Part shown: positions 14,910-45,209 of the stretch, in pieces
Numbering within the stretch: position 1 is the stretch's first letter
Layout of the letters: every line of letters starts with the position of its first letter
Assembly: GCA_018268415.1 (NCBI GenBank)
Contig: JAFDWO010000028.1
Location: forward strand, 1-48,698
Direction of reading: 5' to 3'
DNA from: Actinomycetota bacterium
Lineage (GTDB): Bacteria; Actinomycetota; Thermoleophilia; Solirubrobacterales; 70-9
Length of the DNA stretch: 48,698 bases
The notes under the pieces: generated by a model
The model's input: the letters and a program-made list of their open reading frames with translations, nothing else
Database searches by the model: none
Told to the model about the DNA's origin: nothing
Translations under genes and position numbers: made by a program

Positions 14910-14937
14910 ATTATCATAAGGAACTCGACGGCGTCAA
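14910..14937 (-). promoter_or_regulatory. Promoter of the acyl-CoA dehydrogenase operon, with shared AT-rich element
   Basis: On the minus strand TTGACG (14937-14932), 16 bases, and GATAAT (14915-14910) give a good sigma-70-like promoter 11 bases before the GTG start. The -10 part overlaps TTATCATAA (14911-14919). That 9-mer recurs at 23741-23749 and 38383-38391, both of them promoter gaps. Confidence 0.6.
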
Positions 14938-14955
14938 AGTCAGGGCCGGCGGCCC

Positions 14956-15972
14956 CTACGCGAGCGTGGCGAGGGCGCGATCGAGGAGGCGTTCGATGCT
15001 CGGGCCGAGGGCCTCGTTCGCGGCGTCGACGTGACGGCCATCGAGGCTTCGCTTCCGGTTGTGCGCCTGGATCGCGGCGAGCTTGAAGCAGCCGAGGGCG
15101 AGGAACCAGGACGGGTCGCGGTCGGTCTGGTCGGTCACCTCGAGGTAGGCGGCGACCAGGTCGTCGGCGGTCGGGGTGCCGGGGACGTCACGGCCGAGGC
15201 CCGGGTAGTTGGCCGGGTCGGTGAAGGAGTAGAACCAGCCGAGGTCGACCAGGGGATCGCCGACACTCCAGATCTCCCAGTCGATCAGGCCCTGGGGCTC
15301 GGCGCCGACGAAGAGGATGTTGCCGAGGCGGAAGTCGCCGTGGACGATCGCGGGGCGGGCGGGCGCCGGTGGGGCGGCGGCGAGCATGAGGGCGGGCAGC
15401 TCGGTCGCCGCCGGGTGGTCGAACCGGGCGGCCTCCATCGTCCTGGTCCAGATCGCGAGCTCCGCGGCGGGGGTGCGCACCGGCTCGCCGGCGAGGCCGA
15501 TCGCCGCCGAATCGAGCGCGTGGAGGCGCGCGATCACGTCCAGCGCCGCCTGCCAGCGGGCGGCGATCAGCGCGCCGCTCTCCTCCGCCTGGGGCGGCTC
15601 GATCAGGGGCTCGGTTGCCACGCCCGGCAACAGGTCGGCGGCGTAGAAGGGAGGGTCGCCGTCGCCGCGCAGCCGCACCCCGGCCACCGGGACGCTGCCG
15701 TCGGCGCCCAGGGCTTCGACGACCCGCGCCTGGCGCAGGACGTCGTGGCGACCGCGGGCGGGGCGGCCGACCGGGGCGGACTTGACCACCAGGCGCCGCT
15801 CGCGCCTGTCGGCGTCCCGCAGGACCGCGAGGTGGGTGACGCCGGAGTGGCCGCCCGACATCCGCGAGAGCTCGATCAGCGCGGCCGCGCCGGCCGGGTC
15901 CCCCGCGGCCGCGCGCCCGAGGGCACCGCGGATCTGCTCGGCGAGCTCCGAATCGGCGGCTAACGAATTCAT
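14956..15972 (-). CDS. Phosphotransferase family protein (APH-like, FadE36 type)
   Basis: A kinase-fold protein of the aminoglycoside-phosphotransferase superfamily, here with a catabolic rather than resistance context. The Brenner-type catalytic loop IVHGDFRLGNILF and the metal-binding LIDWEIWSVGDPLVDLG are intact. Homologues adjacent to ACAD10/11-type dehydrogenases phosphorylate 4-hydroxyacyl-CoA so that the dehydrogenase partner can eliminate phosphate; that role is inferred here from the neighbour at 13657. Three possible ATG starts exist (15984, 15981, 15972) and none has a ribosome site. I prefer 15972 because CATGAT at 15985-15980 could be a -10 box for a leaderless mRNA. The 16-bp palindrome 15970-15985 covers the start region. 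Confidence 0.87.
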   Translation of the reverse strand: MNSLAADSELAEQIRGALGRAAAGDPAGAAALIELSRMSGGHSGVTHLAVLRDADRRERRLVVKSAPVGRPARGRHDVLRQARVVEALGADGSVPVAGVRLRGDGDPPFYAADLLPGVATEPLIEPPQAEESGALIAARWQAALDVIARLHALDSAAIGLAGEPVRTPAAELAIWTRTMEAARFDHPAATELPALMLAAAPPAPARPAIVHGDFRLGNILFVGAEPQGLIDWEIWSVGDPLVDLGWFYSFTDPANYPGLGRDVPGTPTADDLVAAYLEVTDQTDRDPSWFLALGCFKLAAIQAHNRKRSLDGRHVDAANEALGPSIERLLDRALATLA

Positions 15973-15985
15973 GATGACCATCATG
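15970..15985. promoter_or_regulatory. Palindrome over the kinase start codon, in the divergent gap
   Basis: CATGATG, AC, CATCATG form a perfect inverted repeat between the divergent kinase and SDR genes. Its core TGATGACCATCA (15972-15983) differs by one base from the perfect palindrome TGATGATCATCA at 16881-16892. The two sites flank the SDR gene and probably bind the same dimeric regulator. Confidence 0.55.
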
Positions 15986-16009
15986 CCAGTTTCGCGCTAG
16001 GCTGCCGGG

Positions 16010-16819
16010 ATGGAGAGATTCGAGGGACGGGTGGCGCTCGTCACGGGCGCCTCGAAGGGAATCGGCGCGGCAACGGCGGAGCGGCTGGCCCGCGAAGGCG
16101 CGAGCGTCGCGGTCAACGCGCGCAACGAGGACGCCCTGCGCGAGCTCACCGACCGGCTCGCCGCCGCGGGGCTGGCCGTGCATCCGGTGGCGGGCAGCGT
16201 CACCCGGCCGGAGGGGCCCGAGGCGCTGGTCGCGGCGACGGTCGAGCGCTTCGGCAAGATCGACGTCGTCGTCAGCGCGGTCGGCGTCAACACCACCTAC
16301 GGACCGCTGCTCGAGACCGAGCGCGAGGCCTTCCTGGCGACGATGGAGCGGAACACCTGGCCGCTCGTCGCGCTGGCCCAGGCGGCCGTCGCCCACGGGC
16401 TCGGCGAGGGCGGCGCGATCGTCGCCGTCTCGACCATCGGCAGCCACTCGATCCAGCCGCTGGTCGCCCCCTACTGCGCCAGCAAGGCGGCGCTCGACCT
16501 GCTGGTCCGCACGCTTGCCCGTGAGCTCGGCCCGCGCGGCATCCGCGTCAACGCGGTGGCTCCCGGGCTGGTCGAAACCGACATGTCGCAGATCCTCTGG
16601 GAAGGCGACCAGGCGACCGCGGAGGCGGAGCTGCTGCCGCTCGGGCGGCTCGGGAAGCCCGCCGACATCGCCGCCGCGATCGCCTGGCTGGCCTCGCCGG
16701 ATGCCGGGTGGACGACCGGCCAGATCGTCGACGTCGACGGTGGTCGCACCCAGATCGGCGACGAGCCGGCGCACCTGATCGGTGCCCACCGCGGCTCGCC
16801 GACTCCAGCGAACGACTGA
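16010..16819 (+). CDS. SDR family oxidoreductase
   Basis: A classical short-chain dehydrogenase/reductase of 269 residues that oxidises or reduces a hydroxyl/keto group with NAD(P). The Rossmann motif TGASKGIG lies at residues 12-19, the NAG-like SAVG near 90, and the catalytic Ser-Tyr-Lys set in VSTIGSHSIQPLVAPYCASKAA; the C-terminal VDVDGG is typical. ATG 16010 has no clear ribosome site, so the mRNA may be leaderless or the start imprecise. It diverges from the kinase gene across a 37-bp gap that holds a palindrome. In this cluster a 3-hydroxyacyl-CoA or cyclic alcohol substrate is likely (inference). Confidence 0.88.
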   Translation: MERFEGRVALVTGASKGIGAATAERLAREGASVAVNARNEDALRELTDRLAAAGLAVHPVAGSVTRPEGPEALVAATVERFGKIDVVVSAVGVNTTYGPLLETEREAFLATMERNTWPLVALAQAAVAHGLGEGGAIVAVSTIGSHSIQPLVAPYCASKAALDLLVRTLARELGPRGIRVNAVAPGLVETDMSQILWEGDQATAEAELLPLGRLGKPADIAAAIAWLASPDAGWTTGQIVDVDGGRTQIGDEPAHLIGAHRGSPTPAND

Positions 16820-16853
16820 GCTGCCGGGCGGGGGTGATGGGGTCCGCGACCAG

Positions 16854-16892
16854 TTAACATCGCCTTTCAGGGAATCGTTATGATGATCATCA
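16854..16892 (+). promoter_or_regulatory. Promoter and palindromic operator of the flavoprotein-HyuAB operon
   Basis: TTAACA (16854-16859) and TATGAT (16879-16884) could be -35 and -10 elements, though the 19-bp spacer is long. The -10 overlaps TGATGATCATCA (16881-16892), a perfect palindrome that is nearly identical to the one at 15972-15983, and CGTTATGAT, which recurs at 38386-38394 on the minus strand. Confidence 0.5.
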
Positions 16893-16961
16893 GCAGGTGG
16901 TTGGAACCGCTGCCGCGGCCGCGAAACCGCCGCTGACGTTGGGAACGGGAAGGAGCTTCAG

Positions 16962-18623
16962 ATGGAGAACGGTGCGCATAGCCCCGTGGTGGGCAGCGGC
17001 GACGTCAACTTCGACCGCGAGACGGACGTGGTCGTCGTCGGCTCCGGCGCGGCCGGCCTCTCGGCCGCCCTCGCCGCCCTCGCCGACGGCGCCACGGTGA
17101 TCCTGCTGGAGAAGTCGGCGACGCTCGGCGGCACCACCCGCAAGTCCTCGGCGTTCGCCTGGTACCCCAACCATTTCGGCCTCCAGGTCGACGGCTACGT
17201 CGACGAGAAGGACGACGCGTTGCGCTACATGGCGCGCCTCTCCCAGCCTGACGCCTACGACCCGGCCGGCCCCACCCTCGGCCTCGAGCCCTGGCGCTAC
17301 GAGCTGCTCGACGCCTTCTACGAGAACGCCGCCGTCGCTGCCGAGGCGCTGCACGAAGCCGACGTCGAGTCGATCCACCTCACCGAGATGTCGGATTATT
17401 TCGCCGAGCTGCCCGAGAACAAGACCCCGCGCGGCCGCACGCTGCGCCCCAGGACCCGCGACGGCGAGCCCGGCACCGGGGTCGAGTTCGTCGAGCAGGG
17501 CGCCGAGGCGGTCGCGGCGCGCGGCGGCGAGATCCTCACCGAGCACGCGGTCGAGAGCGTCGTCACCGACGACGACGGCCGCGTCGTGGGCGTCCTCGCC
17601 CGCACGCCCCAGGGGCTGGTGGCGATCGGCGCCCGCGGCGGCGTCGTCTTCGGCTCCGGCGGCTTCGCCCAGAACCAGCACCGCCTCGCCGACCACATGG
17701 CGGCGCCGATCATCGGCACCTGTGCGGCGATCGGCAACACCGGCGATTTCCTCGACATCGCCGAAGCTCTGGGCGCCCCGCTGCGCAACATGACCTACCC
17801 CTGGATGACGCTGCTCCCGCTGGAGTGGGCGCTCGACCACGACCCCGAGGTGAAGAGCCTCTTTCACCCACCCGGCGACAGCATGCTCTTCGTCAACGGC
17901 GCCGGCCGGCGGACGATGAACGAGAAGGGGCCCTACAACGAGATGGCCCAGATGTTCCAGCGCTGGGACCCGCGCGGCGCCCGCTATCCGGAGCTCTTCC
18001 AGTTCATGGTCTGGGACCAGGGCACCCAGGACCTCCACTCCAACGAGCGGCCCGCCAACCCGATCCGCCCGACCGGCCACCCGGCCCCGCACGTGGTCAA
18101 GGGCGACACCCTCGACGATCTCGCCGCGGCGCTGACCCAACGCGTCGCCGAGCTCGCCGACCACGTGCCCGGTCTATATATAGAGGCGGATTTCGGCGCC
18201 AACCTGAAGGCGGCGGTCGAGCGCTTCAACGACGGCGCCCGCCAGGGCCGCGATCTCGACTTCGAACGCGGCGAGTCGGCGATCGAAGTCTTCTTCAACG
18301 AGATGTTCACCGGCGGCATCCGCGACGAGCGCAACCCGCTGATGTTCCCGCTGCGCGACGAGGGGCCGTACTACGCGACGATCATCGTCCCCGCCGCCCT
18401 CGACACCAAGGGCGGCCCGCCGATCGACCGCGACTCGCGCGTCCTGCGCGCCGACGGCACCCCGATCCCCGGCCTCTTCGGGGCGGGCAACTGCGTCGCC
18501 TCACCCGCCGGCAAGGCCTACTGGGCCGCCGGCGGCACGGTGGGGCCGGCGGTCGTCTTCGGCTACCTGGCCGGTCGCACGGCAGCGGCCGCCGTTCCAG
18601 CTCAACCCGGCGCCGCGGCGTGA
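16962..18623 (+). CDS. FAD-dependent oxidoreductase, KstD/fumarate-reductase flavoprotein type (first copy)
   Basis: A flavoprotein of the FAD_binding_2 family, 553 residues. The family includes 3-ketosteroid delta-1-dehydrogenase, fumarate reductase and urocanate reductase. The dinucleotide fold is DVVVVGSGAAGLSAALAALADGATVILLEK (Gly27, Gly29, Gly32, with the acidic end of strand 2). LGGTTRKSSAFAWYPN follows as in KstD-type enzymes. A C-terminal FAD contact is GLFGAGNCVASPAGKAYWAAGGTVGPAVVFGYLAG. It could desaturate a cyclic ketone or reduce an enoate; the choice cannot be made here. AAGGAG precedes the ATG. It is the first gene of the operon with HyuA, HyuB and a zinc ribbon. Confidence 0.88.
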   Translation: MENGAHSPVVGSGDVNFDRETDVVVVGSGAAGLSAALAALADGATVILLEKSATLGGTTRKSSAFAWYPNHFGLQVDGYVDEKDDALRYMARLSQPDAYDPAGPTLGLEPWRYELLDAFYENAAVAAEALHEADVESIHLTEMSDYFAELPENKTPRGRTLRPRTRDGEPGTGVEFVEQGAEAVAARGGEILTEHAVESVVTDDDGRVVGVLARTPQGLVAIGARGGVVFGSGGFAQNQHRLADHMAAPIIGTCAAIGNTGDFLDIAEALGAPLRNMTYPWMTLLPLEWALDHDPEVKSLFHPPGDSMLFVNGAGRRTMNEKGPYNEMAQMFQRWDPRGARYPELFQFMVWDQGTQDLHSNERPANPIRPTGHPAPHVVKGDTLDDLAAALTQRVAELADHVPGLYIEADFGANLKAAVERFNDGARQGRDLDFERGESAIEVFFNEMFTGGIRDERNPLMFPLRDEGPYYATIIVPAALDTKGGPPIDRDSRVLRADGTPIPGLFGAGNCVASPAGKAYWAAGGTVGPAVVFGYLAGRTAAAAVPAQPGAAA

Positions 18624-18654
18624 CCCGGCTGCCCAGACAACGGAGGAGAGTGGC

Positions 18655-20718
18655 GTGACGGTTCGAGTCGGAATCGACGTAGGAGGGACCTTCACCGACG
18701 CGGTGCGGATCGACGACGAGACCGGGGAGATCACCCGGGCCAAGGTCCTGACCACCGCCCACGATCAGTCGGAGGGGACGATGGCCGCGCTGCAGCGGCT
18801 GGTCGACGATCCCGCCGACGTCGGTGCCTTCCACCACGGCTACACGGTGGGGCTGAACGCGGCGCTCACCCGGACCGGCGCGCGCACCGGAATGCTGGTC
18901 ACCGCCGGGCACCGCGACACGATGGATCACGGCCGCGTCTGGCGTCCCTTCGACGAGAACCTCTACGACCCGTCCTGGCGCCGCCCCCACCAGGAGCGGC
19001 CGATGGTCGAACGGCGCCTGCGCCGCGAGGTGCCGGAGCGGATGCGCGAGAACGGCGAGGTGCTGCTGGAGCTCGACGAGGAGGCGACCCGGGAAGAGCT
19101 CGAGTTCCTCAAGCGCGAAGGGGTCGAGGCGGTCGGCGTCTGCCTGATCAACGCCTACGAGCACCCCGCCCACGAGAAGCGGGTCCGCGAGATCGTCGCC
19201 GAAGTCCTGCCCGACGCCTACGTCCAGACCTCCGACATCTGGCCGCTGGCGCGCGAGTTCGAGCGCACCTTCGTCGTCGCCCTCGACGCCTACACGGGCC
19301 CGCCGGTCGTCCGTTACCTGGAGCGGCTGGAGAAGCGGCTCGAGGAGGCGGGCTTCGACTCCCGGGTGGAGATCATGCAGATGGACGGCGGTCTGCGCAC
19401 CAGTCCGTCGGTCCGCCAGGCGCCCGTCTACACGCTGCAGTCCGGCCCGGTCGCCGGCCTGCTCGGTGCCGAGGGCTACTCGCGCGAGCTGCTCGACGGC
19501 CGCAACCTCGTCTGCCTCGACATCGGCGGCACCAGCTCCGACCTCGGGGTGATCATCGACGGCGCCGCCGAGGTGACCAACGAGTGGGAACTCGAACACG
19601 CGATCCCGCTCGCGATCACCACCCTCGACGTGCGCTCGATCGGCGCCGGGGGCGGCAGCATCATCGGCCTCGACGAGGTCGGCTCGCTCAAGGTCGGCCC
19701 CGAATCGGCGGGCTCCGAACCGGGCCCCGCCTGTTACGGCCGCGGCGGCACCCGCCCGGCGATGACCGACGCCTACGTGGCGATGGGCTTGTTGCAGCCC
19801 GACCTCTTCCTCGGCGGCGAGATGAAGCTCGATCGCGAGGCGGCGTTGGCCGCGCTCGGCACGGTCGCCGAGCCGCTGAAGATGGACCCGATCGAGCTCG
19901 CCCAGGGCGCCTACTCGATCGCCAACGTGACGATCGCCGCGGCGCTCGCCCGGATGACCACCCACCGCGGGTACGACCCGCGCGAGTTCTCGCTGCTCGG
20001 CTACGGCGCGGCGGGGCCGGTGCACGCGGTCGCCGTCGCCCGCGAGCTCGGCATCGACGAGGTCGTCATCCCCTACTTCCCGGGTGGCTTCTCCGCCTAC
20101 GGGATGGTCGCCAGCCGCTCGCGGGTCGAGTACTCGGAGGCGACGATGAGCTCGCTGGAGGGGCTCGGCGCCGAGGCGCTGAACGAGGCGCTCCGCCGCC
20201 AGGCCGCCCGTTGTCGCGAGGACCTGCTGGCGCAGGGCGTCCCGGAGGGGGAGATCGCGATCGAGTGCGCCTACTACGGCATGTACACCGGGCAGGGGGA
20301 AGACAACCGCCTGCCGCTCCCGGGCCTCGACCTCACCGACGAGGACATCCCGCGGATCGTCGAGGACTTCCACGCCTTCTACGACCGCCGCTTCGGCTAC
20401 CGGGCGCCGGAGATCCCGATCTTCGTCTCCTCGGTCTCGGCCGTCGGGTACGGCAGGCAGCGCCCGATGACGCTCCCGTCGACCGCCGCCGAGAACGGTG
20501 ACGGCAGCGGGGTCGAGCGGGCGGTGATCATGCGCGAGACGCTCCACGTCGACGGCGGCTCGCACCCCGACAGCGCTTTCTACGACCGCAACCTCCTACG
20601 CGACGGGGACGAGGTGCAGGGCCCCGCGATCATCGACGACCACCTCGGGACGATCGTCGTCAACCCCGGCGCCACCGCCCGGGTGGTCAGCCACGGCACT
20701 CTCAGGATCGAGGTCTGA
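18655..20718 (+). CDS. Hydantoinase/oxoprolinase family protein, HyuA/acetone-carboxylase-beta type (second copy)
   Basis: The ATP-using subunit of the second HyuAB complex, 687 residues. VGIDVGGTFTD is at residues 5-15 and LDIGGTSSDLGVI near residue 290. The segment HGYTVGLNAALTRTGARTGMLVTAGHRDTMDHGR differs from ordinary HyuA (HGTTV...ALLERRG), and the region WRRPHQERPMVERRLRREVPERM resembles acetone/acetophenone carboxylase beta subunits; that resemblance is from memory of the family. The start is GTG with GGAGGAG seven bases upstream. HyuB follows after 2 bp and a small zinc-ribbon protein after that, which matches the three-part plan of acetone carboxylase. ATP-dependent carboxylation of a ketone or a related activation is a reasonable hypothesis. 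Confidence 0.9.
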   Translation: MTVRVGIDVGGTFTDAVRIDDETGEITRAKVLTTAHDQSEGTMAALQRLVDDPADVGAFHHGYTVGLNAALTRTGARTGMLVTAGHRDTMDHGRVWRPFDENLYDPSWRRPHQERPMVERRLRREVPERMRENGEVLLELDEEATREELEFLKREGVEAVGVCLINAYEHPAHEKRVREIVAEVLPDAYVQTSDIWPLAREFERTFVVALDAYTGPPVVRYLERLEKRLEEAGFDSRVEIMQMDGGLRTSPSVRQAPVYTLQSGPVAGLLGAEGYSRELLDGRNLVCLDIGGTSSDLGVIIDGAAEVTNEWELEHAIPLAITTLDVRSIGAGGGSIIGLDEVGSLKVGPESAGSEPGPACYGRGGTRPAMTDAYVAMGLLQPDLFLGGEMKLDREAALAALGTVAEPLKMDPIELAQGAYSIANVTIAAALARMTTHRGYDPREFSLLGYGAAGPVHAVAVARELGIDEVVIPYFPGGFSAYGMVASRSRVEYSEATMSSLEGLGAEALNEALRRQAARCREDLLAQGVPEGEIAIECAYYGMYTGQGEDNRLPLPGLDLTDEDIPRIVEDFHAFYDRRFGYRAPEIPIFVSSVSAVGYGRQRPMTLPSTAAENGDGSGVERAVIMRETLHVDGGSHPDSAFYDRNLLRDGDEVQGPAIIDDHLGTIVVNPGATARVVSHGTLRIEV

Positions 20719-20720
20719 AC

Positions 20721-22748: not shown

Positions 22749-22751
22749 ACG

Positions 22752-23024: not shown

Positions 23025-23041
23025 GGGACTGATCCGGCGCT

Positions 23042-23680: not shown

Positions 23681-23734
23681 CTCGTCCTCCTCGCCTTGTC
23701 CCGTTCCCGAGGGGTTCCCGGGATCTCTACCCAA

Positions 23735-23758
23735 CCGTTGTTATCATAAGCATAGTTT
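23735..23758. promoter_or_regulatory. Divergent promoter/operator, shared element
   Basis: The 24 bases aligned with 26628-26651 agree at 18 positions (here TTGTTATCATAAGCATAG, there TTGTTATAGTTAGCATGG). Both lie between divergent genes. On the plus strand TATCAT (23742-23747) would place transcription start near the TTG codon at 23757; on the minus strand the same bases read TATGAT for the NTF2 gene. Confidence 0.6.
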
Positions 23759-26566: not shown

Positions 26567-26627
26567 AGGTCCTTTTCCGGCTAGTTGCGGGCCTGTGGAA
26601 TCCACGCTCTCCCCGCAAGTGGCATTA

Positions 26628-26651
26628 CCATTGTTATAGTTAGCATGGATT
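26628..26651. promoter_or_regulatory. Divergent promoter/operator, shared element
   Basis: This is the partner of the site at 23735-23758 (18 of 24 bases the same). Plus strand: TATAGT (26635-26640) is a good -10 box for the amidohydrolase operon. Minus strand: TATAAC serves the CoA-transferase, and the reading ATGCTAACTATAAC links it to the GCTAAC sites at 30531 and 40012. Confidence 0.6.
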
Positions 26652-29290: not shown

Positions 29291-29303
29291 TTTCCTTCCG
29301 ATC

Positions 29304-29328
29304 ATTAGGTTTAAATGGTTAGTGCATG
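29304..29328 (+). promoter_or_regulatory. Start-codon operator of the FadR-type regulator
   Basis: TTAAATGGTTAG (29311-29322) lies 3 bp before the ATG. Its reverse complement CTAACCATTTAA agrees at 11 of 12 bases with CTAACCATCTAA at 40018-40029. There is no ribosome site; TTTAAA (29310-29315) could be the -10 box of a leaderless mRNA. It suggests autoregulation. Confidence 0.5.
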
Positions 29329-30092: not shown

Positions 30093-30482
30093 ATGGCGGG
30101 CGACCTCGATCGAGCCGAGGTCGGCCGCGAGCTGCGCGAGCGGGCGCAGGGCGAGATGGCGCCGCGGCTGCAGGAGGCGCTCGGCTCGCTCGACCCGGAG
30201 CTCGCCGAGATCGCCGACGACTTCATCTTCGGCCGCCTCTGGAGCGGCGAGGGCATCGCCTTCGAGGAGCGGATGCTGGTGGCGATCACCGCGCTCGCGG
30301 CGGGCGACCACCAGGAGCAGCTGCGCAACTACCTCCATGGTGCCCTGCAGGAAGGCATCCCGGCGGAGAAGCTCCACGAGGCGCTGAAGATGCTGGTCGT
30401 CTATTGCGGCTTCCCCACCGCCCTGCACGCGCTGGCGACCTTCGCCAAGGTCCGCGCCGCCCACGAGAAGCGCCAGGGCTGA
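30093..30482 (+). CDS. Carboxymuconolactone decarboxylase (CMD) family protein
   Basis: A small all-helical protein of 129 residues from the AhpD/CMD fold. The conserved core is FEERMLVAITALAAGDHQEQLRNYLHGALQEGIPAEKLHEALKMLVVYCGFPTALHALATF. There is one Cys in VVYCGFP and no CxxC pair, so an AhpD-like peroxidase role is unlikely. Real CMD activity (protocatechuate branch) cannot be assumed either. The ATG lies 5 bp after the regulator's stop, so it is probably co-transcribed with it. Confidence 0.83.
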   Translation: MAGDLDRAEVGRELRERAQGEMAPRLQEALGSLDPELAEIADDFIFGRLWSGEGIAFEERMLVAITALAAGDHQEQLRNYLHGALQEGIPAEKLHEALKMLVVYCGFPTALHALATFAKVRAAHEKRQG

Positions 30483-30530
30483 ACCGCTCCGGCGGATGGT
30501 CCGCGGTGGGTTTAACCCGCCCGCGACACA

Positions 30531-30545
30531 ATCCTGCTAAACATC
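30531..30545 (+). promoter_or_regulatory. Shared element before the second aldehyde dehydrogenase operon
   Basis: ATCCTGCTAAACATC matches ATCCTGCTAACCATC at 40012-40026 at 14 of 15 bases. It lies 63 bp upstream of the first start codon of the operon (30594), in an intergenic gap. It is a probable operator or promoter part. Confidence 0.5.
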
Positions 30546-30593
30546 ACCCTGAATTGGGAACCGGCCGGCGCGCGCCGGCGGAAGGGAGCGCGG

Positions 30594-30653
30594 ATGAGAT
30601 TCACCGACGGGTTGCTCGCCTACGTGGTCGACGGCGGCAGGAGCCTGGTCTGA
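30594..30653 (+). CDS. Possible 19-residue leader ORF coupled to the aldehyde dehydrogenase
   Basis: An ATG behind GAAGGGAG opens MRFTDGLLAYVVDGGRSLV, and its TGA overlaps the ATG of the aldehyde dehydrogenase (TGATG). The layout copies the mini-ORF before the ABM gene at 9430-9462. The aldehyde dehydrogenase has no ribosome site of its own, so coupling is plausible. I do not recognise the peptide. Confidence 0.4.
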   Translation: MRFTDGLLAYVVDGGRSLV

Positions 30654-37570: not shown

Positions 37571-37606
37571 GTTGAGGGCGCCATGACGCCCCGAACTCAG
37601 CGAGCG
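37561..37606. terminator. Bidirectional hairpin, second copy of the dispersed palindrome
   Basis: The arms 37561-37573 and 37594-37606 pair perfectly, two mismatches follow, then GGGCG (37576-37580) pairs with CGCCC (37587-37591) around CCATGA. The left 19 bases are identical to the left arm at 23042-23060. It again lies at a convergent junction and covers a stop codon (37568-37570). Confidence 0.75.
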
Positions 37607-37622
37607 TCCGACGGCCCGTCGC

Positions 37623-38372: not shown

Positions 38373-38382
38373 TTCCGTATCT

Positions 38383-38401
38383 TTATCATAACGATTATGA
38401 T
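38383..38401. promoter_or_regulatory. Overlapping divergent promoters with shared AT-rich element
   Basis: TTATCATAA (38383-38391) and TATGAT (38396-38401) lie between the SDR and the ABC ATPase. The minus-strand reading TATGAT (38391-38386) serves the SDR; the plus-strand TATGAT, with TTTCCG at 38372-38377 as a poor -35, serves the transporter. The 9-mer is the same as at 14911 and 23741. Confidence 0.6.
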
Positions 38402-38455
38402 TTTCGGATTGGCGCGCCGGGACCGCGCCTGGGACCGAAACGGGAGGAGATGAAT

Positions 38456-40012
38456 GTGCACCCGAGCGAACGAATGCGAGGCACGAGCCTGATGCCGCTA
38501 CTCGAGATCCGCGAGATGTCCAAGACCTTCCCCGGCACCCGGGCGCTCGACCACGTCGACCTCGACATCGCCGCCGGCGAGGTCCACGCCCTGGTCGGCC
38601 AGAACGGCTCCGGCAAGTCGACCTTGATCAAGGTCCTCGCCGGCTTCCACGAGCCCGATCCGGGGACCCTCGTGCGCGTCGACGGGGAGGAGGTGGAGCT
38701 CGCCGATCCGGCCGCCTCGCGCGCCGCCGGCTTCCGCTTCGTGCACCAGGACCTGGCCCTGGTCGACGACCTCTCGGTGGTTGAGAACCTCGCCCTCGGG
38801 CGGGGCTTCCAGACCGGCGCGATGGGCCGTATCCGCTGGCGTGACGAGCGCCGCGCGGCGCAGGAGATGCTCGACTCGCTCGGCTTCGACTTCGACGTGC
38901 GCAAACCGCTCGGCACCCTTGCCGCCGCCGAGCGGACCGGCGTGGCGATCGCCCGGGCGATGTGGAACTGGGAAGACGGGGCGCGCATCCTCGTCCTCGA
39001 CGAGCCGACGGCGACGCTGCCGATGGCCGAGGTCGAGACCCTCTTCCGCACCGTGCGGCGGGTGCGCGAGCGCGGCCTCGGTGTGATCTACGTGTCCCAC
39101 CGCCTCGACGAGGTGTTCTCGATCGGCGATCGGATCTCGATCCTGCGCGACGGGCGCAAGGTCGGCACCTACAAGACCGCCGACCTCGACGAGGACAAGC
39201 TGATCGCGCTGATGGTCGGCGAGGCGGTCACCCGTGTCGCGGGGGCGAAGGCGGCGCCGGGCGGCGCCACGGTCCTCGCGGTCGAGGGCCTCTGCGGCAC
39301 GGTCCTCTGCGATCTCAGCTTCGAGGCGAAGGCCGGCCAGGTGCTCGGCTTCGCCGGGCTGACCGGGTCGGGCCGCGAGGAGCTGCTGCCGCTGATCTTC
39401 GGCGCCGGGGAACGGCTCGGCACGGTCGCCGTCGACGGGCGCAAGGTGAAGGCGGCGCGACCGGAGTCGGCGATCGCCGCCGGCATCGCGCTGATCCCCT
39501 CGGATCGCCTCCACCAGGGCGGCGTCTTCGACATGTCGGTGACCCAGAACCTCACCCTCACCGACCCCGGCCGGCTGACCGGCCCGGCGAAGGAGATCCG
39601 GCGCGGGCGCGAGCGCAGCGAGGTGCGCGACTGGATCGGGCGCCTCGACGTGCGGCCGAGCAACCCCGACCTACCGCTGGCGGCGCTCTCCGGCGGCAAC
39701 CAGCAGAAGATCGTGATCGCCAAGTGGCTGCGGATGAGCCCGCGGGTGCTGCTGCTCGACGAGCCGACCCAGGGGGTCGACGTCGGCGCCAAGGCGATGA
39801 TCCACGCGCTGGTCCGCGAAGCCGCGGCGGCGGGCGCCGCGGTGGTGGTCGCCTCCGGCGACGACGAGGAGATCTGCGACATCTGCGATCAGGTCTACGT
39901 GCTGCGCGACGGCGCGATCGTCGGCGAGCTCACCCAGGAGCAGATGTCGATCGACGAGGTCGGCCGGATGCAGCTCGTCGGGCGCGGCAACGGCCACGCC
40001 CCGGTCGCCTAA
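38456..40012 (+). CDS. CUT2-type ABC transporter ATP-binding protein (RbsA-like, duplicated)
   Basis: A fused double ATPase of about 518 residues that energises import through the permease encoded next. The first half has Walker A GQNGSGKST (near residue 50), a degenerate signature (TLAAAERTGVAIARAM) and Walker B ILVLDEPTATLP. The second half has an imperfect Walker A (GLTGSGREEL), the signature LSGGNQQKIVIAKWL and VLLLDEPTQGVDVGAK; this unequal pattern is typical of RbsA/MglA. GGGAGGAG at 38442-38449 directly abuts ATG 38450 but is well spaced for GTG 38456, which I use; a later ATG at 38492 would begin at MPLLEIREM. The substrate is probably not ribose here, given the catabolic context. Confidence 0.9.
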   Translation: MHPSERMRGTSLMPLLEIREMSKTFPGTRALDHVDLDIAAGEVHALVGQNGSGKSTLIKVLAGFHEPDPGTLVRVDGEEVELADPAASRAAGFRFVHQDLALVDDLSVVENLALGRGFQTGAMGRIRWRDERRAAQEMLDSLGFDFDVRKPLGTLAAAERTGVAIARAMWNWEDGARILVLDEPTATLPMAEVETLFRTVRRVRERGLGVIYVSHRLDEVFSIGDRISILRDGRKVGTYKTADLDEDKLIALMVGEAVTRVAGAKAAPGGATVLAVEGLCGTVLCDLSFEAKAGQVLGFAGLTGSGREELLPLIFGAGERLGTVAVDGRKVKAARPESAIAAGIALIPSDRLHQGGVFDMSVTQNLTLTDPGRLTGPAKEIRRGRERSEVRDWIGRLDVRPSNPDLPLAALSGGNQQKIVIAKWLRMSPRVLLLDEPTQGVDVGAKAMIHALVREAAAAGAAVVVASGDDEEICDICDQVYVLRDGAIVGELTQEQMSIDEVGRMQLVGRGNGHAPVA

Positions 40013-40048
40013 TCCTGCTAACCATCTAATTCCTTGCGATGATCACAA
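40012..40048 (+). promoter_or_regulatory. Two shared elements before the ABC permease
   Basis: ATCCTGCTAACCATC (40012-40026) repeats the element at 30531-30545, and TTGCGATGATCAC (40034-40046) resembles TTGCGATTATCGTC at 43751-43764. They occupy the 98-bp gap after the ATPase gene, so the permease, NTF2 and EthD genes may have their own promoter. A 22-codon frame (40039-40107) ends in GAGGAGGAG-TAA over the permease ribosome site and is probably fortuitous. Confidence 0.45.
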
Positions 40049-40110
40049 TGAGCGTGTACGGTGTCCGGGTCGTGCGACACCCCTGGGAAGGGCCGGAGGA
40101 GGAGTAACCG

Positions 40111-41262
40111 ATGGAGATCAAGAGTCGGCGCAAAGTTGAGGACGCATCGGCGGCACCCGCCGGCGCGGCGTCGGGGAATGCAAACGCGACCCTCCCCGCC
40201 TCCTCGGGGCGCCACGAGGTCCCGCTCGCCCGCCGCATCCTCGCCGGCCTCGGCCCGCGGCGGATCAGCGCGGTCTACCTCTTCATCCTCTTCGTCGTCG
40301 TCTTCTCGCTGATCAACCCGAACACGTTCCTCACCTCGGCGACCTTCCGCCTGGTCTTCAGCGAAGGCGTCGTCACCTGCCTGCTGGCGCTCGCCTTCCT
40401 CATCCCGCTCGCCGCCAATGCCTACGACCTCTCGATCGGCAACCTGATGGCGCTGTCGCTCGGCCTCTGCGTCTGGCTCAACCTGCACACCGGCCTGCCC
40501 GCCTCGGTGGCGGCGATCCTGGCGATCCTCGCCTGCACCGCGACGGGTGCCTTCAGCGGCTTCGTCATCGTCAAGCTGCGCGTCAACTCCTTCATCGCGA
40601 CGCTCGGTACCAGCCAGATCCTGCTCGCCCTGGTCCTGCTCCTCTCCGGCAACTCGCAGCTGATCGCCGAATTCCCCGACTCCTACAAGAAGCTCGGGAT
40701 CGACCAGGTGGCGGGTATCCCGATCGTCGTCTTCTACCTGCTCGGGGTCAGCATCCTGCTCTGGTTCGTGCTCGAGCACACGCCGATCGGCCGTTACCTC
40801 TTCGCCACCGGCGGCAACGAGCAGGCGGCCCGCCTCACCGGCGTGCGCACCGACCGCGTCGTCTGGGGATCGCTGATCGCCTCCGGCGCGATCTGCGGCC
40901 TGGCCGGCGTCGTCTACTCGATGCGCACCGGAATCTTCTCCGCCACCACCGGCCCGGGCTACCTCTTCCCGGCGGTCGCCGCGGTCTTCCTCGGCGCCTC
41001 GCAGTTCCAGCAGCGGCCCAACGTCTGGGGGACGCTGATCGCCTACTTCGCCCTTGCCTTCGGCATCCAGGGCCTGGCGCTCAGCTCGACCTCAGGGGCC
41101 GTCTGGAGCCAGCCGCTGTTCGAGGGCGTGGCCTTGATCGTCGCCGTCTCGCTCGCGAGCCGGCCGATCGTCGCCAGGTTGAGGGAGGCCCGGGCCGATA
41201 AAGACCTCGATGCGATCGAGGCCGACCCGGGCCCCGCCAAGGCGCCCGCCGGCTCCGGATGA
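40111..41262 (+). CDS. ABC transporter permease, RbsC-like
   Basis: The membrane subunit of the CUT2-type importer, 383 residues. After a hydrophilic N-terminus of about 50 residues come several hydrophobic segments (VYLFILFVVVFSLINPNTFL, VVTCLLALAFLIPLAANAYDLSIGNLMAL, VAAILAILACTATGAFSGFVIVKL and others). The segment LAANAYDLSIGNLMAL matches the family's substrate-path helix, and GGNEQAARLTGVRTDRVVWGSLIASG is the conserved cytoplasmic loop that contacts the ATPase. The C-terminal tail is charged. The ribosome site GGAGGAGGAG lies 8 bases upstream. The usual one-permease homodimer is assumed. Confidence 0.92.
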   Translation: MEIKSRRKVEDASAAPAGAASGNANATLPASSGRHEVPLARRILAGLGPRRISAVYLFILFVVVFSLINPNTFLTSATFRLVFSEGVVTCLLALAFLIPLAANAYDLSIGNLMALSLGLCVWLNLHTGLPASVAAILAILACTATGAFSGFVIVKLRVNSFIATLGTSQILLALVLLLSGNSQLIAEFPDSYKKLGIDQVAGIPIVVFYLLGVSILLWFVLEHTPIGRYLFATGGNEQAARLTGVRTDRVVWGSLIASGAICGLAGVVYSMRTGIFSATTGPGYLFPAVAAVFLGASQFQQRPNVWGTLIAYFALAFGIQGLALSSTSGAVWSQPLFEGVALIVAVSLASRPIVARLREARADKDLDAIEADPGPAKAPAGSG

Positions 41263-41840
41263 GCGATGACCTGAGGGCCGAGGTGGATGCCCTCCTCGCG
41301 CGCGTCCGGCAACTGGAGGACCGCGAGGAGATCGCCCGGGTGATCTGGAACTACTCGTTCCTGCTCGACACCGGGCAGTGGAACGAGGTCCCGGCGGCGG
41401 TCTACTCGGAGGACGGCATGGACGTCCACTCCGAGGACACCGACCCGCCGATGATCACCGAGGGACGTACCGCGATGCGTGACTTCTTCCGGTACACGAT
41501 GCCTCACTTCGACGGTACCCAACACTTCACCGGTCCGTCGATGATCGACCTCGACGGTGACACCGCGAAGGCGCGTACCTACCTCTTCGCCTCGCACTGG
41601 ATGAAGACCGGTAAGGGCACCGGCCCGGTGCGCCCTGCCGACTGCATCATGGCTTTGGCGTACGACGACGAGCTGGTGCGCACCGCGGCGGGCTGGCGGG
41701 TGAGCAAGCGCCGCCTCCACGCGTTCGGCCCCGGCAGCAGCCTCGCGGTCGGCTTCATGCCCGACTTCTGCATGCCGGCCGTGGGCGGCAACCTCTACGG
41801 CGCGCCGCGCCAAGCCGACGAAGAAGCCGACCGAACCTGA
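41259..41840 (+). CDS. Nuclear transport factor 2 (SnoaL-like) family protein
   Basis: A SnoaL_4-type protein of 193 residues. The N-terminal helix VRQLEDREEIARVIWNYSFLLDTGQWNEVPAAVYSEDGMDVHSED resembles that of the protein at 23078, so both may belong to the same subfamily. MALAYDDELVRTAAGWRVSKRRLHAF is the usual C-terminal strand pair. It overlaps the permease gene by ATGA, an unusual pairing of a soluble catabolic protein with a transporter; perhaps it acts on the imported compound. Confidence 0.85.
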   Translation: MSDDLRAEVDALLARVRQLEDREEIARVIWNYSFLLDTGQWNEVPAAVYSEDGMDVHSEDTDPPMITEGRTAMRDFFRYTMPHFDGTQHFTGPSMIDLDGDTAKARTYLFASHWMKTGKGTGPVRPADCIMALAYDDELVRTAAGWRVSKRRLHAFGPGSSLAVGFMPDFCMPAVGGNLYGAPRQADEEADRT

Positions 41841-41850
41841 GAGGAGAACG

Positions 41851-42543
41851 ATGGTCAAGTTGATCGCCCTGCTGGTGAAGCGGGAGGGACTGACCGATGT
41901 CGAGTTCCATCGCCACTGGCGTTATAACCACGGCCCGCTGGCGGCGAAGATCACGTCGATGGAGGCGTACTGCCAGTGTCACCTGGTGCCGCGCCCGCCC
42001 GCCGACCTATCGATCGCCGACACCTTCGGCGGCACCGCCGAAGTGTGGTGGGAGGACCTGGACGCCGCCGCCCGCCTCGCGACCGACCCGGAGTACACCG
42101 AGCACGCCGAGCCCGACGAGCCCCTCTTCATCGACATGGACCGGATGATCTTCATGACCGTGAAGGAGCAGGAGGTGCTCGGCTCACGCCCGGCGAAGGC
42201 CGACGGGGGGCTGAAGGTGATCCACCTGGTGACCCGCGCCGAGGGCACCGACCCGGACGAGTTCCGCGCCCGGTTCGAGGCCGCCGACGAGGCCGCCGCG
42301 GCGGCCGAGCTGAAGATGTCGCGCTTCGTCCGCACCTGCTGCGTGCCCGAGGCCTACACCGTCAAACCCCCGGCGTTCGACGCCACCCGGGAGATGTGGT
42401 GGCCCGACGAATGGGCCTTCGCCGCCGCCCGCGAGAACGCCGCCGAGGCCTGGCAAAGCCTGGTCGAGACGCCCTTCGCCGACGCGTCGCGTAGCCACTT
42501 CCTGGTGACGATCGAGAACCGGGTGGTGTGGTTCGGCCAGTAG
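41851..42543 (+). CDS. EthD domain-containing protein, tandem
   Basis: A 230-residue protein of the dimeric alpha-beta barrel fold. The first EthD-like domain (residues 1-110: VKLIALLVKREGLTDVEFHRHWRYNHGPLAAKI...YCQCHLV) has the family's FHxHWxxxHGPL signature. A second, weaker domain (about 120-230: LKVIHLVTRAEGTDPDEFRARFEAADEAAAAA) lacks the HW...H residues. EthD itself is needed for cytochrome P450 ether cleavage, but most members have no proven reaction. GAGAGGAG precedes the ATG. It is the last gene of the transporter operon. Confidence 0.86.
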   Translation: MVKLIALLVKREGLTDVEFHRHWRYNHGPLAAKITSMEAYCQCHLVPRPPADLSIADTFGGTAEVWWEDLDAAARLATDPEYTEHAEPDEPLFIDMDRMIFMTVKEQEVLGSRPAKADGGLKVIHLVTRAEGTDPDEFRARFEAADEAAAAAELKMSRFVRTCCVPEAYTVKPPAFDATREMWWPDEWAFAAARENAAEAWQSLVETPFADASRSHFLVTIENRVVWFGQ

Positions 42544-42559
42544 GCCCGGCGGCGGCTCC

Positions 42560-43687
42560 TCAGGCGGCGGCCGGGTCGAGGACCGCCTTGATCTCCGCGA
42601 AGGAGGCCATGCGCCGCAGCGCTGTGGTCGCCTCGGCGAGGCCGTAGGTGTCGCCGAGGAGCAGGTCCCAGTCGAAGCGATCGGTGTGCAGTCGCAGGAA
42701 CTCGAGCGCGTGGTAGTAGGAGTCGATCGAGGCGCCGAGGCTGCCGAAGATGGCGAGGTTCTTCTGCGTGATGCGCTGGGCGAGCAGCGGCTGCTCGGGG
42801 CCGCCGAGGCTGCCGGCGATCACGTAACGGCCGTTGGCGGCGACCATGTCGATTCCCTCGACCACCGCACCAGGGCCGCCGGAGAACTCGCCGACCACGG
42901 TGGCGCCGCGGCCCTCGGTCTCCTCTTTCACCCGCGCGACCCGCTCCTCGCGGCTCGGGTGCTCGTCGATCGAGATCGTCACGTCGGCGCCCCAGGCGCG
43001 CGCCACCTCGAGCCGCGCCGCGGGCGCACCGACGACGATCAGCCTGCGGGGGCTGTGGCTCGCCGCCACGGCGGTGGCGAAGAGGCCGACCGGCCCGGCG
43101 CCCTGGATCACGACCGTGTCGGTGAAGTCGATGCCGCCGAGCCGGCCGAGCGCCGGGATCGCCGTCCGCAGGGCGCAGCTCGCCGCCGCGGCCAGGGCGC
43201 TGTCGACCTCGTCGGGCACGCGCAGCCGGCCGGAGCGCGGCCAGACGTAGGAGTACTCGCCGAAGCCACCGTGGAAGTGGGGCTCCCTGGTCGCCGGGAT
43301 CAGGAAGCCGATGGTCCGGTGTGCGCACAGCGACGGGTTGCGTTCGACCGAGCACTGGTAGCAGTGGTTGCAGGGCTCGTGCTCCCAGACGACCCGGTCG
43401 CCCGTGCGCAGCGGCCGGTCGATCGAGTCGACCTCGGCGCCCGCGCCGAAGGCGACCACCCGGCCGACGATCTCGTGGCCGAGGATGACCGGCGGCTCGA
43501 TGCCGAAGTCGGCGGCGAAGGCGCCGTCCCAGACGTGCACGTCGGAGCCGCAGATCGTCGTCTTGTCGACCGCGACCAGGAGCGCCCCGGGCGGCGGTGC
43601 CAGGACCGGGAGCTCCTGGATCTCGAGGGGCTCGTTCCAGGCGGTGACGACCGCCGCGCGGCCAGATTCAGGCAGCTTCGGACTCAC
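42560..43687 (-). CDS. Zinc-dependent alcohol dehydrogenase (MDR family)
   Basis: A medium-chain dehydrogenase/reductase of 375 residues. The catalytic zinc ligands are Cys46 (TICGSDVH) and His71 with Glu72 (GHEIVGRV). The structural zinc loop is Cys106, Cys109, Cys112 and Cys121 (EPCNHCYQC...LC). The cofactor motif is VIQGAGPVGLFATAVA. The GTG start has AAGGAG seven bases upstream. The gene interrupts the transporter cluster on the opposite strand, converging on the EthD gene (16-bp gap) and diverging from the binding-protein gene. It probably oxidises an alcohol to the aldehyde used by one of the aldehyde dehydrogenases. Confidence 0.92.
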   Translation of the reverse strand: MSPKLPESGRAAVVTAWNEPLEIQELPVLAPPPGALLVAVDKTTICGSDVHVWDGAFAADFGIEPPVILGHEIVGRVVAFGAGAEVDSIDRPLRTGDRVVWEHEPCNHCYQCSVERNPSLCAHRTIGFLIPATREPHFHGGFGEYSYVWPRSGRLRVPDEVDSALAAAASCALRTAIPALGRLGGIDFTDTVVIQGAGPVGLFATAVAASHSPRRLIVVGAPAARLEVARAWGADVTISIDEHPSREERVARVKEETEGRGATVVGEFSGGPGAVVEGIDMVAANGRYVIAGSLGGPEQPLLAQRITQKNLAIFGSLGASIDSYYHALEFLRLHTDRFDWDLLLGDTYGLAEATTALRRMASFAEIKAVLDPAAA

Positions 43688-43750
43688 TCTGTCTCTCCTT
43701 TACCAGTCGGTGCTTGCGCCCGCCATCAAAAAGATAATTCATCAGAACAA

Positions 43751-43779
43751 TTGCGATTATCGTCAGGAGCGTCTATATT
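43751..43779 (+). promoter_or_regulatory. Promoter of the substrate-binding protein gene
   Basis: TTGCGA (43751-43756), 17 bases, and TATATT (43774-43779) make a well-spaced sigma-70-like promoter about 100 bp before the lipoprotein start. The -35 part lies in TTGCGATTATCGTC, a relative of the element at 40034. Confidence 0.6.
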
Positions 43780-43882
43780 CGGCCCGGGGATGGTCGCCGC
43801 CCTGAGTGGCGGCCGCGGGAGACGCCCAATCCGATGGGTTCCAGGTGGGACTCGGCAACGTCTGAGGAGGAGAAAGAAATCG

Positions 43883-45076
43883 ATGGGGAAGTTGGCGAAT
43901 TGGAGGCTGTTGGTTGCGCTGATGGCGATCGTCGCCGCGGGACTGTTGGTCACGGCCTGCGGGGGAGGGTCGAGCAGCTCGACTGAATCGACCACGGCGG
44001 CCGCCGAAGAAGAAGGCGAAGGCGCGACCGAAGACGCTGCGTCCACCGAAGGCGAAGCAGCGGGTGCGGAAATCGTCCCGGCCCCGCCGACGGAACCGAT
44101 CAACGAGTTTCCGGTGACCGAGCCGATCAAGGAAAAGCCGCCGGCGAAGCAGAACGTGATCTGGCTCGCCTGCTCCTTGCCGAGCTGCCAGGGTGACCTC
44201 AGCCTGGGTTACAAGAACGCGGCGGCCGCGCTCGGCTGGGGCTTCGAACAGATCAACTACAACCCGCTGAAGGCAGCCGAAGGCGTGCAGACCGCGCTGA
44301 ACAAGAATCCTGACTCGATCTTCATCACCGGGATCCCGCCGGCGGCGTTCGAAGCCCAGGCGAAGGAAGCGATCAAGAAGGAAATCCCGATCTTCTCGGG
44401 CTTCGACCTGACCGCGCCCGAACCGACCAAAAACGGGATCTATTACCAGTACCTCAATGCGAACGGTTACGGCAACGAGGCGAAGAAGATGTCCGACTGG
44501 GTGATCAACGACTCGGCCGGGAAAGCCCACGTGCTGACCGTGGTGGTCGAAGAATATCCGATCCTCGTGTCCGAGGTGGAATCGATCGAAGCTGCGTACA
44601 GTGAAGGTTGCCCCGAATGTACGTTGGAAAAACTCGCCGTCACGGTGGAAGACGTGGAAGGTGGGAAAGTGCCGGCGAAAGTCGCCGCCTACATCCAGTC
44701 GCATCCGGAAATCAACTACATCCAGTTCACTTTCGGTGACCTTCTGCCTGGTGTCGAAGCGGCGCTGCAGTCGGCCGGGATCGAAGGGGTCAAGTTCACC
44801 GGGGTGCAGTCGAACCCGACGATCGTGAAGGAAATCACCGAAGGCAAGGTCGCCGCCTGGACGGCCCAGCCCCAGCAGTTCCAGGGCTGGATCTCCACCG
44901 ACGCGGCGATTCGCGTCGCCCAGGGCCTCCCGCTCACCGGGTACGAGAAATCGGGCGAAATCCCGACCTGGGTCATCGACTCCAAGCCGGCCGCCGAACA
45001 GGTCCTCAAGGAAGGCGGCGAATGGCCGGGACCGGCCGGGTTCGAGGAAAAGTTCGAAAAGCTCTGGGGCCTCTAG
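43883..45076 (+). CDS. ABC transporter substrate-binding lipoprotein (Peripla_BP_4 type)
   Basis: The extracellular binding protein of the CUT2-type importer, 397 residues. It has a lipoprotein signal peptide (NWRLLVALMAIVAAGLLVTAC) with the lipobox ending at Cys26, then an acidic, low-complexity linker (about residues 30-65, rich in Glu, Ala, Thr). A two-lobed binding fold starts at NVIWLACSLPSCQGDLSLGYKNAAAALGW; VQTALNKNPDSIFITGIPP is the family's usual repeat. I use ATG 43883 because the signal peptide begins there; the frame is open further upstream. Glu is written mostly GAA here, whereas neighbours use GAG, a sign of selection for high expression or of a different history. A strong terminator follows. 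Confidence 0.91.
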   Translation: MGKLANWRLLVALMAIVAAGLLVTACGGGSSSSTESTTAAAEEEGEGATEDAASTEGEAAGAEIVPAPPTEPINEFPVTEPIKEKPPAKQNVIWLACSLPSCQGDLSLGYKNAAAALGWGFEQINYNPLKAAEGVQTALNKNPDSIFITGIPPAAFEAQAKEAIKKEIPIFSGFDLTAPEPTKNGIYYQYLNANGYGNEAKKMSDWVINDSAGKAHVLTVVVEEYPILVSEVESIEAAYSEGCPECTLEKLAVTVEDVEGGKVPAKVAAYIQSHPEINYIQFTFGDLLPGVEAALQSAGIEGVKFTGVQSNPTIVKEITEGKVAAWTAQPQQFQGWISTDAAIRVAQGLPLTGYEKSGEIPTWVIDSKPAAEQVLKEGGEWPGPAGFEEKFEKLWGL

Positions 45077-45137
45077 GCCGCCAGAAACCGGCCGGCGGAG
45101 CCGTCGCGGCATCCGTCGTCCGGCCCCCAACGCGAAC

Positions 45138-45170
45138 CGAGGAGCGGATGTCGGCGACATCCGCTCCTCG
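45138..45170 (+). terminator. Factor-independent terminator
   Basis: The 15-base arms 45138-45152 and 45156-45170 are perfect complements around the loop GGC, and the T-rich TTCGTTTCC follows. It is the best classical terminator of the window and ends the binding-protein mRNA. Confidence 0.8.
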
Positions 45171-45186
45171 TTCGTTTCCGTCCTTA

Positions 45187-45209
45187 CAATTTCTCACTAT
45201 GATTAGACC
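45187..45209 (+). promoter_or_regulatory. Promoter of the last operon, shared element
   Basis: CTCACTATGATTAGACC contains TATGAT (45198-45203) as a -10 box. Read on the minus strand it is TCTAATCATAGT, alignable with the GCTAACTATAAC element of 26628-26651. TTTCCG at 45175-45180 occupies the -35 position with 17-bp spacing, as it does (18 bp) at 38372. Confidence 0.5.

Follow-up and report, generated by a model that had tools for sequence, protein, structure and literature searches.

The question raised by this stretch of DNA, a contig of 48,698 nucleotides from an actinobacterium of the order Solirubrobacterales (JAFDWO010000028.1, here C81; the entire contig is referred to as the window, and the genome comprises 4.74 Mb in 160 contigs), is whether an AT-rich, partly palindromic element that recurs in its promoter gaps is an operator and, if so, which protein reads it. 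An initial annotation had proposed that this element unites a catabolic supercluster into one regulon, governed by the only GntR/FadR-type regulator encoded there. In our assessment it is likely that the motif is a real operator, that the FCD protein with its gene at 29326 reads it, that it overlaps promoter boxes, and that it defines one regulon subject to ligand-released repression. The presence of the element, its rarity in the genome, its clustering in the window and its recurrence near homologues of the regulator are all computed from the sequence.

The exact 9-mer TTATCATAA does occur at 14911, 23741 and 38383, as first noticed, in each case within an intergenic gap, where shuffled sequences (n = 100) would lead one to expect a mean of 0.00 copies; in the entire genome it is found just four times, three of these being in the window. 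The fourth copy lies on contig C120 (L035, 10494-10629) between divergent genes, one of which encodes a thiamine pyrophosphate (TPP) enzyme; the same contig also encodes methylmalonyl-CoA-mutase-type, MeaB and AMP-binding enzyme genes. Among the relatives of the 9-mer, TTATGATGA is found at 16878 as claimed, while two others exist but had been given slightly wrong co-ordinates, TTATAGTTA being at 26634-26642 rather than at 26628 (which is the start of CCATTGTTAT) and ACTATGATTAG at 45196-45206 rather than at 45194. The GCTAAC/ACATC form was correctly placed at 30531 and 40012, exact ATCCTGCTAA-N-CATC matches being restricted to these two places, and ATCCTGCTAANCATC occurs exactly only at 30531-30545 and 40012-40026 in the genome, before catabolic or transport genes. 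It may represent a second element or a variant half-site; as a separate element it is a candidate only, and the palindromic matrix described below does not favour the 30531 copy. The pattern CTAANCAT, picked after looking, occurs four times in the window and 11 times in the genome.

Similar counts can be made for the hexamer TATGAT contained in the element. Seven of its 40 genomic copies are inside the window, which is about 1% of the genome (binomial 1.7e-7), and it is present in 5 of 18 window gaps as against 3 of 155 gaps of other stretches (p 3e-4), whereas the generic TANNNT is hardly different between the two (11/18 and 79/155). The bases flanking it also differ: T precedes the hexamer in 5/7 window copies but in 5/33 others, and AA follows it in 3/7 and 1/33 respectively (counted by eye, then tested). 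In contrast, the agreement in 18 of 24 bases between 23735 and 26628, which had been offered as evidence that more than a hexamer is shared, is true but amounts to chance level, since 3 of 153 window gap pairs agree in at least 18/24 bases and each of the 20 control sets contains between 1 and 16 such pairs.

More general evidence comes from motif discovery, carried out with home-made expectation maximisation (EM) from random starts. Over the 18 window gaps this yielded a 9-bp palindrome (TTATSATAA-like) with a log-likelihood of 35.9, well above the values for 40 length-matched control gap sets from other stretches of the genome (mean 12.7, maximum 16.8). Genes were called using a simple codon-position GC rule, so that some gene starts will be wrong, and because calls at certain places were wrong the gap set used here, as well as for the Mann-Whitney, column-shuffle, homologue-gap and 241-control tests below, was edited, automatic gaps 28095 and 42544 being removed and 43670-43880 and 30460-30620 added by hand. 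The 18 unedited automatic gaps were used for the TATGAT/TANNNT counts, for the 18/24 pair test and for a comparison with 10 sets of 18 consecutive gaps (drawn from seven long contigs, 9 gaps being common to each of three set pairs); the last of these agrees with the 40-set result, giving 34.2 against a maximum of 17.8 for the 9-bp palindrome, 62.2 against 39.0 for a 17-bp palindrome and 70.9 against 58.4 for an asymmetric 14-mer. Runs differ, the 17-bp asymmetric matrix for instance marking 12/18 gaps (relative to 146 control gaps) or 10/18 (relative to 241). The first 20 kb of C10, a contig discussed below, were counted as background in some tests (including the TATGAT/TANNNT, AT-rich-density, 40-set and Mann-Whitney tests) and left out of it in others (the column-shuffle, homologue-gap, core-count, 241-control and 18/24 tests). 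The joint matrix reads attATaAt.aTtATaat, the AT-N periodicity leaving a 3-bp uncertainty in the register; no longer perfect palindrome common to every site was found, and a search for a spaced double-site pattern gave no matches.

The protein encoded at 29326 is the sole one-component helix-turn-helix (HTH) regulator among the window proteins scanned, and its membership of the GntR FadR subfamily is secure in that both the winged helix (PF00392, E 4.8e-13, 49 bits, cut-off 27) and the FCD domain (PF07729, E 1.7e-23, 83.9 bits, cut-off 24.3) exceed the Pfam thresholds. It falls far below the NCBIfam equivalog or subfamily cut-offs for the named FCD regulators (bits/cut-off: NanR 96.2/260; GlcC 78.7/301; PdhR 72.9/330; LldR 65.6/311; FadR 44.2/189). 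H164, H208 and H230, which we take to be the metal-site histidines of the FCD domain, are invariant in 15/15 aligned sequences. Among solved structures, Rv0494 (9wfi) and 2di3 are nearest in sequence, the latter being LldR according to PMC4494728. Residue 49 (HTH position 28 in our own numbering) is Ala and aligns with Arg35 of FadR; Arg at this position prefers a G/C pair. The equivalent residue is Ala in the closest homologue (genome G369), Ser in that of G391, Glu in the C10 paralogue, and Arg or Lys in more distant homologues. As a G/C discriminator the residue is not clean, Ala being present in unrelated paralogues too.

Support for a relation between motif and regulator comes from other genomes. 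Out of 399 genomes of the class searched, 14 in addition to this one match the regulator at E 1e-25 or better, and a homologue set of 12 neighbourhoods from nine genomes (211 kb) was assembled. That of G369 encodes a CoA-transferase III, an aldehyde dehydrogenase, a SnoaL protein, an enoyl-CoA hydratase and a sugar-type binding protein, gene types mostly common to the window. If gaps are counted as marked when they exceed the 97th percentile found for 146 gaps of this genome, the window-trained 17-bp palindrome marks 16/68 gaps of the homologue neighbourhoods and 2/95 gaps in control stretches of those genomes (Fisher 1.8e-5), and three other matrices give 14/68 and 5/95, 15/68 and 4/95, and 11/68 and 1/95 (p 0.003, 5.5e-4 and 3.2e-4). 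In the reverse direction, matrices trained on the homologue gaps (joined, for the column-shuffle and 241-control tests only, by three hand-picked L125 stretches) mark 11 of the 18 window gaps with the 17-bp palindrome, 10 with the 17-bp asymmetric matrix or 6 with the 11-bp palindrome, the 97th percentile here being that for 241 control gaps; their score on the window gaps was equalled by 0/100 column shuffles for four of five matrices and by 1/100 for the fifth. The suggestion that most promoters carry the element holds in the sense of these 11, 10 or 6 gaps, according to the matrix, and not every promoter is covered, 7, 8 or 12 of the 18 gaps remaining below the cut; some of the units lacking a site may be regulated otherwise. 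In the genome sample the motif is not equally frequent at unrelated promoters, being concentrated in C81 and near homologues of the FCD regulator.

Within the same genome, the closest paralogue of the regulator (31% identity) is found on C10 (42 kb), beside ABC importer, P450 and extradiol-type dioxygenase genes, and the exact sequence ATAANNNTTAT occurs at three places in the genome, at 38388 in the window and twice on C10. Allowing up to two mismatches, the core ATAATNATTAT is found five times in the window (at three places), seven times on C10, and 25 times in the 211 kb around homologues, in 11 of the 12 loci (several of these matches overlap each other). The corresponding controls gave one in 459 kb of this genome, one in 300 kb of other genomes, and one in 390 kb of further stretches of this genome. 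Since the 459 kb contain other FCD regulators (14 matches better than 1e-7), the motif goes with this branch of FCD proteins and not with FCD genes at large.

The most serious competing explanation is that the element is nothing but a strong -10 box, TATGAT, and that TTATSATAA, having a -10 on both strands, is a bidirectional promoter core. Outside the window 20/33 TATGAT copies lie between 6 bp inside and 106 bp upstream of a same-strand called start, so that the hexamer is often a -10, and divergent genes flank three of the four genomic 9-mers; moreover, by our own arithmetic, opposed -10 boxes offset as in TTATSATAA would give start sites about 18 bp apart, which is the commonest spacing at bidirectional promoters as described in PMC12825309. 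However, the 14911 copy is outside any divergent gap, it is TATGAT and not TANNNT that is enriched in the window gaps, the flanks agree beyond the hexamer, and the full motif is a 17-bp palindrome, which is seen again in other genomes near homologues of the regulator. A plain -10 box is accordingly unlikely to be the whole explanation.

All this said, several observations weigh against an operator of the 29326 regulator. The fourth 9-mer has no joint-matrix site, and C120 has no relative of the regulator. Taken over all gaps, the distributions show no significant shift (Mann-Whitney p 0.18 to 0.66), enrichment being confined to a tail of strong sites; the homologue loci are not all independent, because some are related to each other; and a 13-bp homologue-trained matrix scores in background gaps too (4/100 shuffles as high). 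Matrices trained on C10 transfer convincingly to the window only at width 11, those for 15- and 17-bp palindromes being equalled by 4/100 and 6/100 column shuffles and the 17-bp asymmetric one by 33/100, while the 13-bp one is not this palindrome. With one mismatch allowed, ATAANNNTTAT is found at 35 places in the genome as against 38 for the reversed control (per strand), although 11 of the 35 are on C81 and C10. The regulator's own promoter, where the initial annotation had seen a related site covering the start at 29311, scores weakly, and autoregulation is weakly supported. Finally, exact ATAAYNRTTAT occurs at eight places in the nine homologue genomes, and none of the stretches concerned (3.4 to 19.9 kb) carries a regulator of this branch (hidden Markov model search, E 1e-3). 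Two are in G369, one where a CoA-transferase III gene begins and the other between genes for EthD and AtuA, and could be distal regulon members; G393 has one in a 3.4 kb contig that offers no clear setting, plus three on two AT-rich contigs with the appearance of contaminants; and G312 and G268 each have one at a MarR-MFS locus. The outcome of this pattern search is best described as neutral to negative.

The MarR loci bear directly on a further alternative, namely that the element is the common operator of another regulator encoded elsewhere, of MarR, LysR or Fur type, the FCD gene being a bystander. ATAATNATTAT-like palindromes are present at the MarR-MFS loci of two other genomes of the order (G312 and G268; L184 9948 and L185 9985), where another family of regulators apparently uses this core, so that such a core is not specific to FCD proteins; C10 encodes a LysR protein (19961-20863) and its sites fit a T-N11-A box; and the ATAATNATTAT-type core resembles Fur boxes. 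Against this, the window contains no relative of the LysR and MarR query proteins (no Fur search was made), and the homologue loci hold a LysR protein in 0/12 cases and a MarR protein in 2/12, compared with an FCD homologue in 12/12, the last figure following from the fact that the loci were chosen by it. Within this genome, the confinement of exact ATAANNNTTAT to C81 and C10 is also unsuited to a global Fur-type regulon, and overall we consider a different regulator improbable. That the shared AT-rich promoters reflect duplicated genes or foreign AT-rich DNA instead of regulation is scarcely credible, for although the window has 24 AT-rich 30-bp stretches and duplicated gene types (e.g. CoA-transferases and hydantoinase-like pairs), the density of such stretches is an ordinary 0.49 per kb (0.11 to 1.45 in 26 background stretches longer than 9 kb), the GC content of the window stays at 66 to 75% along its length, matrices with shuffled columns but unchanged composition score far lower in it, and the flanks of its gaps are no more alike than those of control gaps.

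Returning to the operator of the 29326 regulator, the operator would be an AT-rich palindrome of about 17 bp with repeated AT-N and a core near ATAATNATTAT, of which the best copy is ATCATAACGATTATGAT at 38385, and the exact TTATCATAA 9-mers would be strong half-sites of it. Six TATGAT copies (14913-14918, 16879-16884, 23743-23748, 38385-38390, 38396-38401 and 45198-45203) precede called starts by 14 to 83 bp, as expected of -10 boxes, and the idea that operator and -10 overlap fits the anatomy at 14911, 16878, 23741, 38383 and 45198. The copies would most likely be read by the FCD regulator, whose binding, together with the sign of regulation and the ligand, we infer. Because the copies overlap -10 boxes (a possible -35 in the case of 40033), repression would most simply work by sterically keeping RNA polymerase off the promoter; given that proteins of the FadR subfamily bind effectors such as carboxylic acids (PMC4494728), the block might be relieved once the FCD domain has bound an intermediate of the pathway, either a carboxylate or of CoA type. 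Importer and catabolic operons would then form one regulon. A bolder version, in which this FCD branch has abandoned the GT/AC code for a period-3 AT-N palindrome that is at once -10 or (bi)directional promoter core and operator across the whole supercluster, is on balance rather doubtful. Table 1 collects the individual sites.

Table 1 Candidate operator sites and related genes in the window. Sites were scored using homologue-trained matrices (pal., 17-bp palindrome; asym., asymmetric); fractions give the control gaps, out of 241, scoring as high.
Feature	Position	Strand	Remarks
CTCCGAACGATTATATT candidate	2726..2742	.	Start of MFS gene 1215-2726 (-); 1/241
CATCGATTCCTCATAAC weak candidate	5506..5522	.	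Divergent aldo-keto reductase (-)/hydantoinase-like (+) gap; 7/241 (pal.), 5/241 (asym., nearby)
Operator-like site with TTATCATAA	14901..14920	-	0/241 (pal.); overlaps -10 TATGAT (14918-14913, -) of acyl-CoA dehydrogenase gene 13657-14898
ATGATGACCATCATGCC palindromic site	15971..15987	.	Divergent APH-family (-)/SDR (+) gap; 1/241; overlaps possible starts of gene 14956-15984
Site around GTTATGATGATCATCAG	16874..16896	+	0/241 (pal.), 1/241 (asym.); overlaps TATGAT (16879-16884) of KstD-like flavoprotein gene 16962-18623
Site with TTATCATAA	23737..23759	.	Divergent SnoaL (-)/aldehyde dehydrogenase (+); 3/241; exact 9-mer; -10 TATGAT on - strand at 23748-23743
ATTACCATTGTTATAGTTAGCAT	26624..26646	.	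Between CoA-transferase III (-) and amidohydrolase (+); 1/241
Weak candidate site, regulator's own promoter	29295..29311	+	11/241
GntR/FCD (FadR-subfamily) regulator, 253 aa	29326..30087	+	Pfam; closest homologue G369, 58%
ATCCTGCTAAACATC... candidate	30531..30554	.	Upstream of aldehyde dehydrogenase gene; 0/241 (asym.), 7/241 (pal.)
Best site, ATCATAACGATTATGAT at 38385-38401	38376..38401	.	Divergent SDR (-)/ABC ATPase (+) gap; 0/241 (pal.), 1/241 (asym.); arms carry TATGAT on both strands, 38390-38385 (-) and 38396-38401 (+), facing these genes
Sugar-type ABC importer parts	38450..45076	+	ATPase 38450-40012, permease 40111-41262, binding protein 43877-45076 (Pfam)
ATCCTGCTAACCATC (40012-40026) and palindrome-like CTTGCGATGATCACAAT (40033-40049)	40012..40049	.	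Upstream of ABC permease gene 40111-41262; 40033 site 1/241 (pal.), 14/241 (asym., nearby site); 40033-40049 overlaps TTGCGA (40034-40039), which precedes TACGGT by 17 bp and may form a -35/-10 pair with it (by eye)
Site	43741..43766	.	Divergent alcohol dehydrogenase (42560-43687, -)/sugar-type binding protein (43877-45076, +) gap (Pfam); 2/241 (pal.), 9/241 (asym.)
CACTATGATTAGACC candidate	45189..45209	+	1/241 (asym.), 11/241 (pal.); overlaps -10 TATGAT (45198-45203) of KstD-like gene 45213-46874

The candidates at 2726 and 5506 fall outside the span covered by the initial annotation. Upstream of the MFS gene 1215-2726 (-) there is also a perfect 8-3-8 inverted repeat at 2737-2755, TATATTGG-AAA-CCAATATA, which looks like an operator of another kind. 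At the other end of the window, between the binding-protein and KstD-like genes, is a perfect long hairpin (45139-45169, GAGGAGCGGATGTCG-G-CGACATCCGCTCCTC), which, being terminator-like, would separate the unit beginning at 45213 from the importer.

As far as they were scanned using Pfam or NCBIfam, the genes of the window are mostly catabolic: they include acyl-CoA dehydrogenases, a ChsH2-like OB-fold protein, CoA-transferases III, aldehyde dehydrogenases, SDRs, hydantoinase-like pairs, amidohydrolases, SnoaL, EthD and Rieske proteins, an alcohol dehydrogenase and the sugar-type ABC importer, while the KstD-like flavoproteins score below the NCBIfam cut-offs. Between the importer genes lie SnoaL and EthD genes and, on the - strand, the alcohol dehydrogenase gene. 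There is also an ECF-type sigma factor at 3341-4390, the C-terminal part of which has a weak SnoaL-like match below the Pfam cut-off. Elsewhere in the same genome (G000), consecutive gaps of contig C60 (L176, L177, L039, L178), which also holds other FCD regulators, share the palindromic motifs.G.TgaaC.GttcA.C. and AgaGGTCGACCGGt, possibly representing a second regulon of GT/AC type.

The value of these results is that an uncharacterised 30 kb catabolic supercluster with its importer becomes a testable regulon, having a named regulator and named candidate operator sites. AT-rich palindromes stand out sharply in high-GC genomes, and an operator for an FCD branch that deviates from the published GT/AC consensus could aid regulon prediction there. 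A search of the open-access literature found no paper linking this operator to an FCD regulator; AlkR is said to be a GntR/VanR repressor of alkane degradation (PMC12042122).

It remains to compare the proposed system with known ones. According to PMC4494728, on which the comparisons with FadR-subfamily and BioR operators depend, the operator consensus of the FadR subfamily has conserved TKGT/ACMA boxes, with BioR (TTATMKATAA) as a named exception. The window resembles other members of the subfamily in combining FCD and GntR domains with AT-rich palindromic operators, sites in divergent gaps and catabolic targets, but differs from them in that its joint matrix lacks the conserved GT/AC pair and so does not conform to the GT-N-AC (TKGT/ACMA) pattern. 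PMC12825309 describes bidirectional promoters having a symmetric -10 element, and the palindromic -10 common to the divergent genes at 23741 and 38383 is similar; TTATSATAA could act as such a symmetric bidirectional -10 at both, which is compatible with its being an operator, although unlike those promoters the window motif is extended and accompanies homologues of a regulator. The motif is probably an unusual operator for regulators of the FadR subfamily. It resembles in part that of BioR, likewise an AT-rich TTAT...ATAA palindrome without GT/AC boxes; the comparison is between operator consensus sequences, and the BioR site is even-centred (TTAT-MK-ATAA), whereas TTAT-S-ATAA in the window is odd-centred and lies inside a longer palindrome, and the window genes are catabolic and not biotin genes. 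With BioR as a published precedent, the computational evidence supports a regulon whose operator is unusual but not unprecedented.

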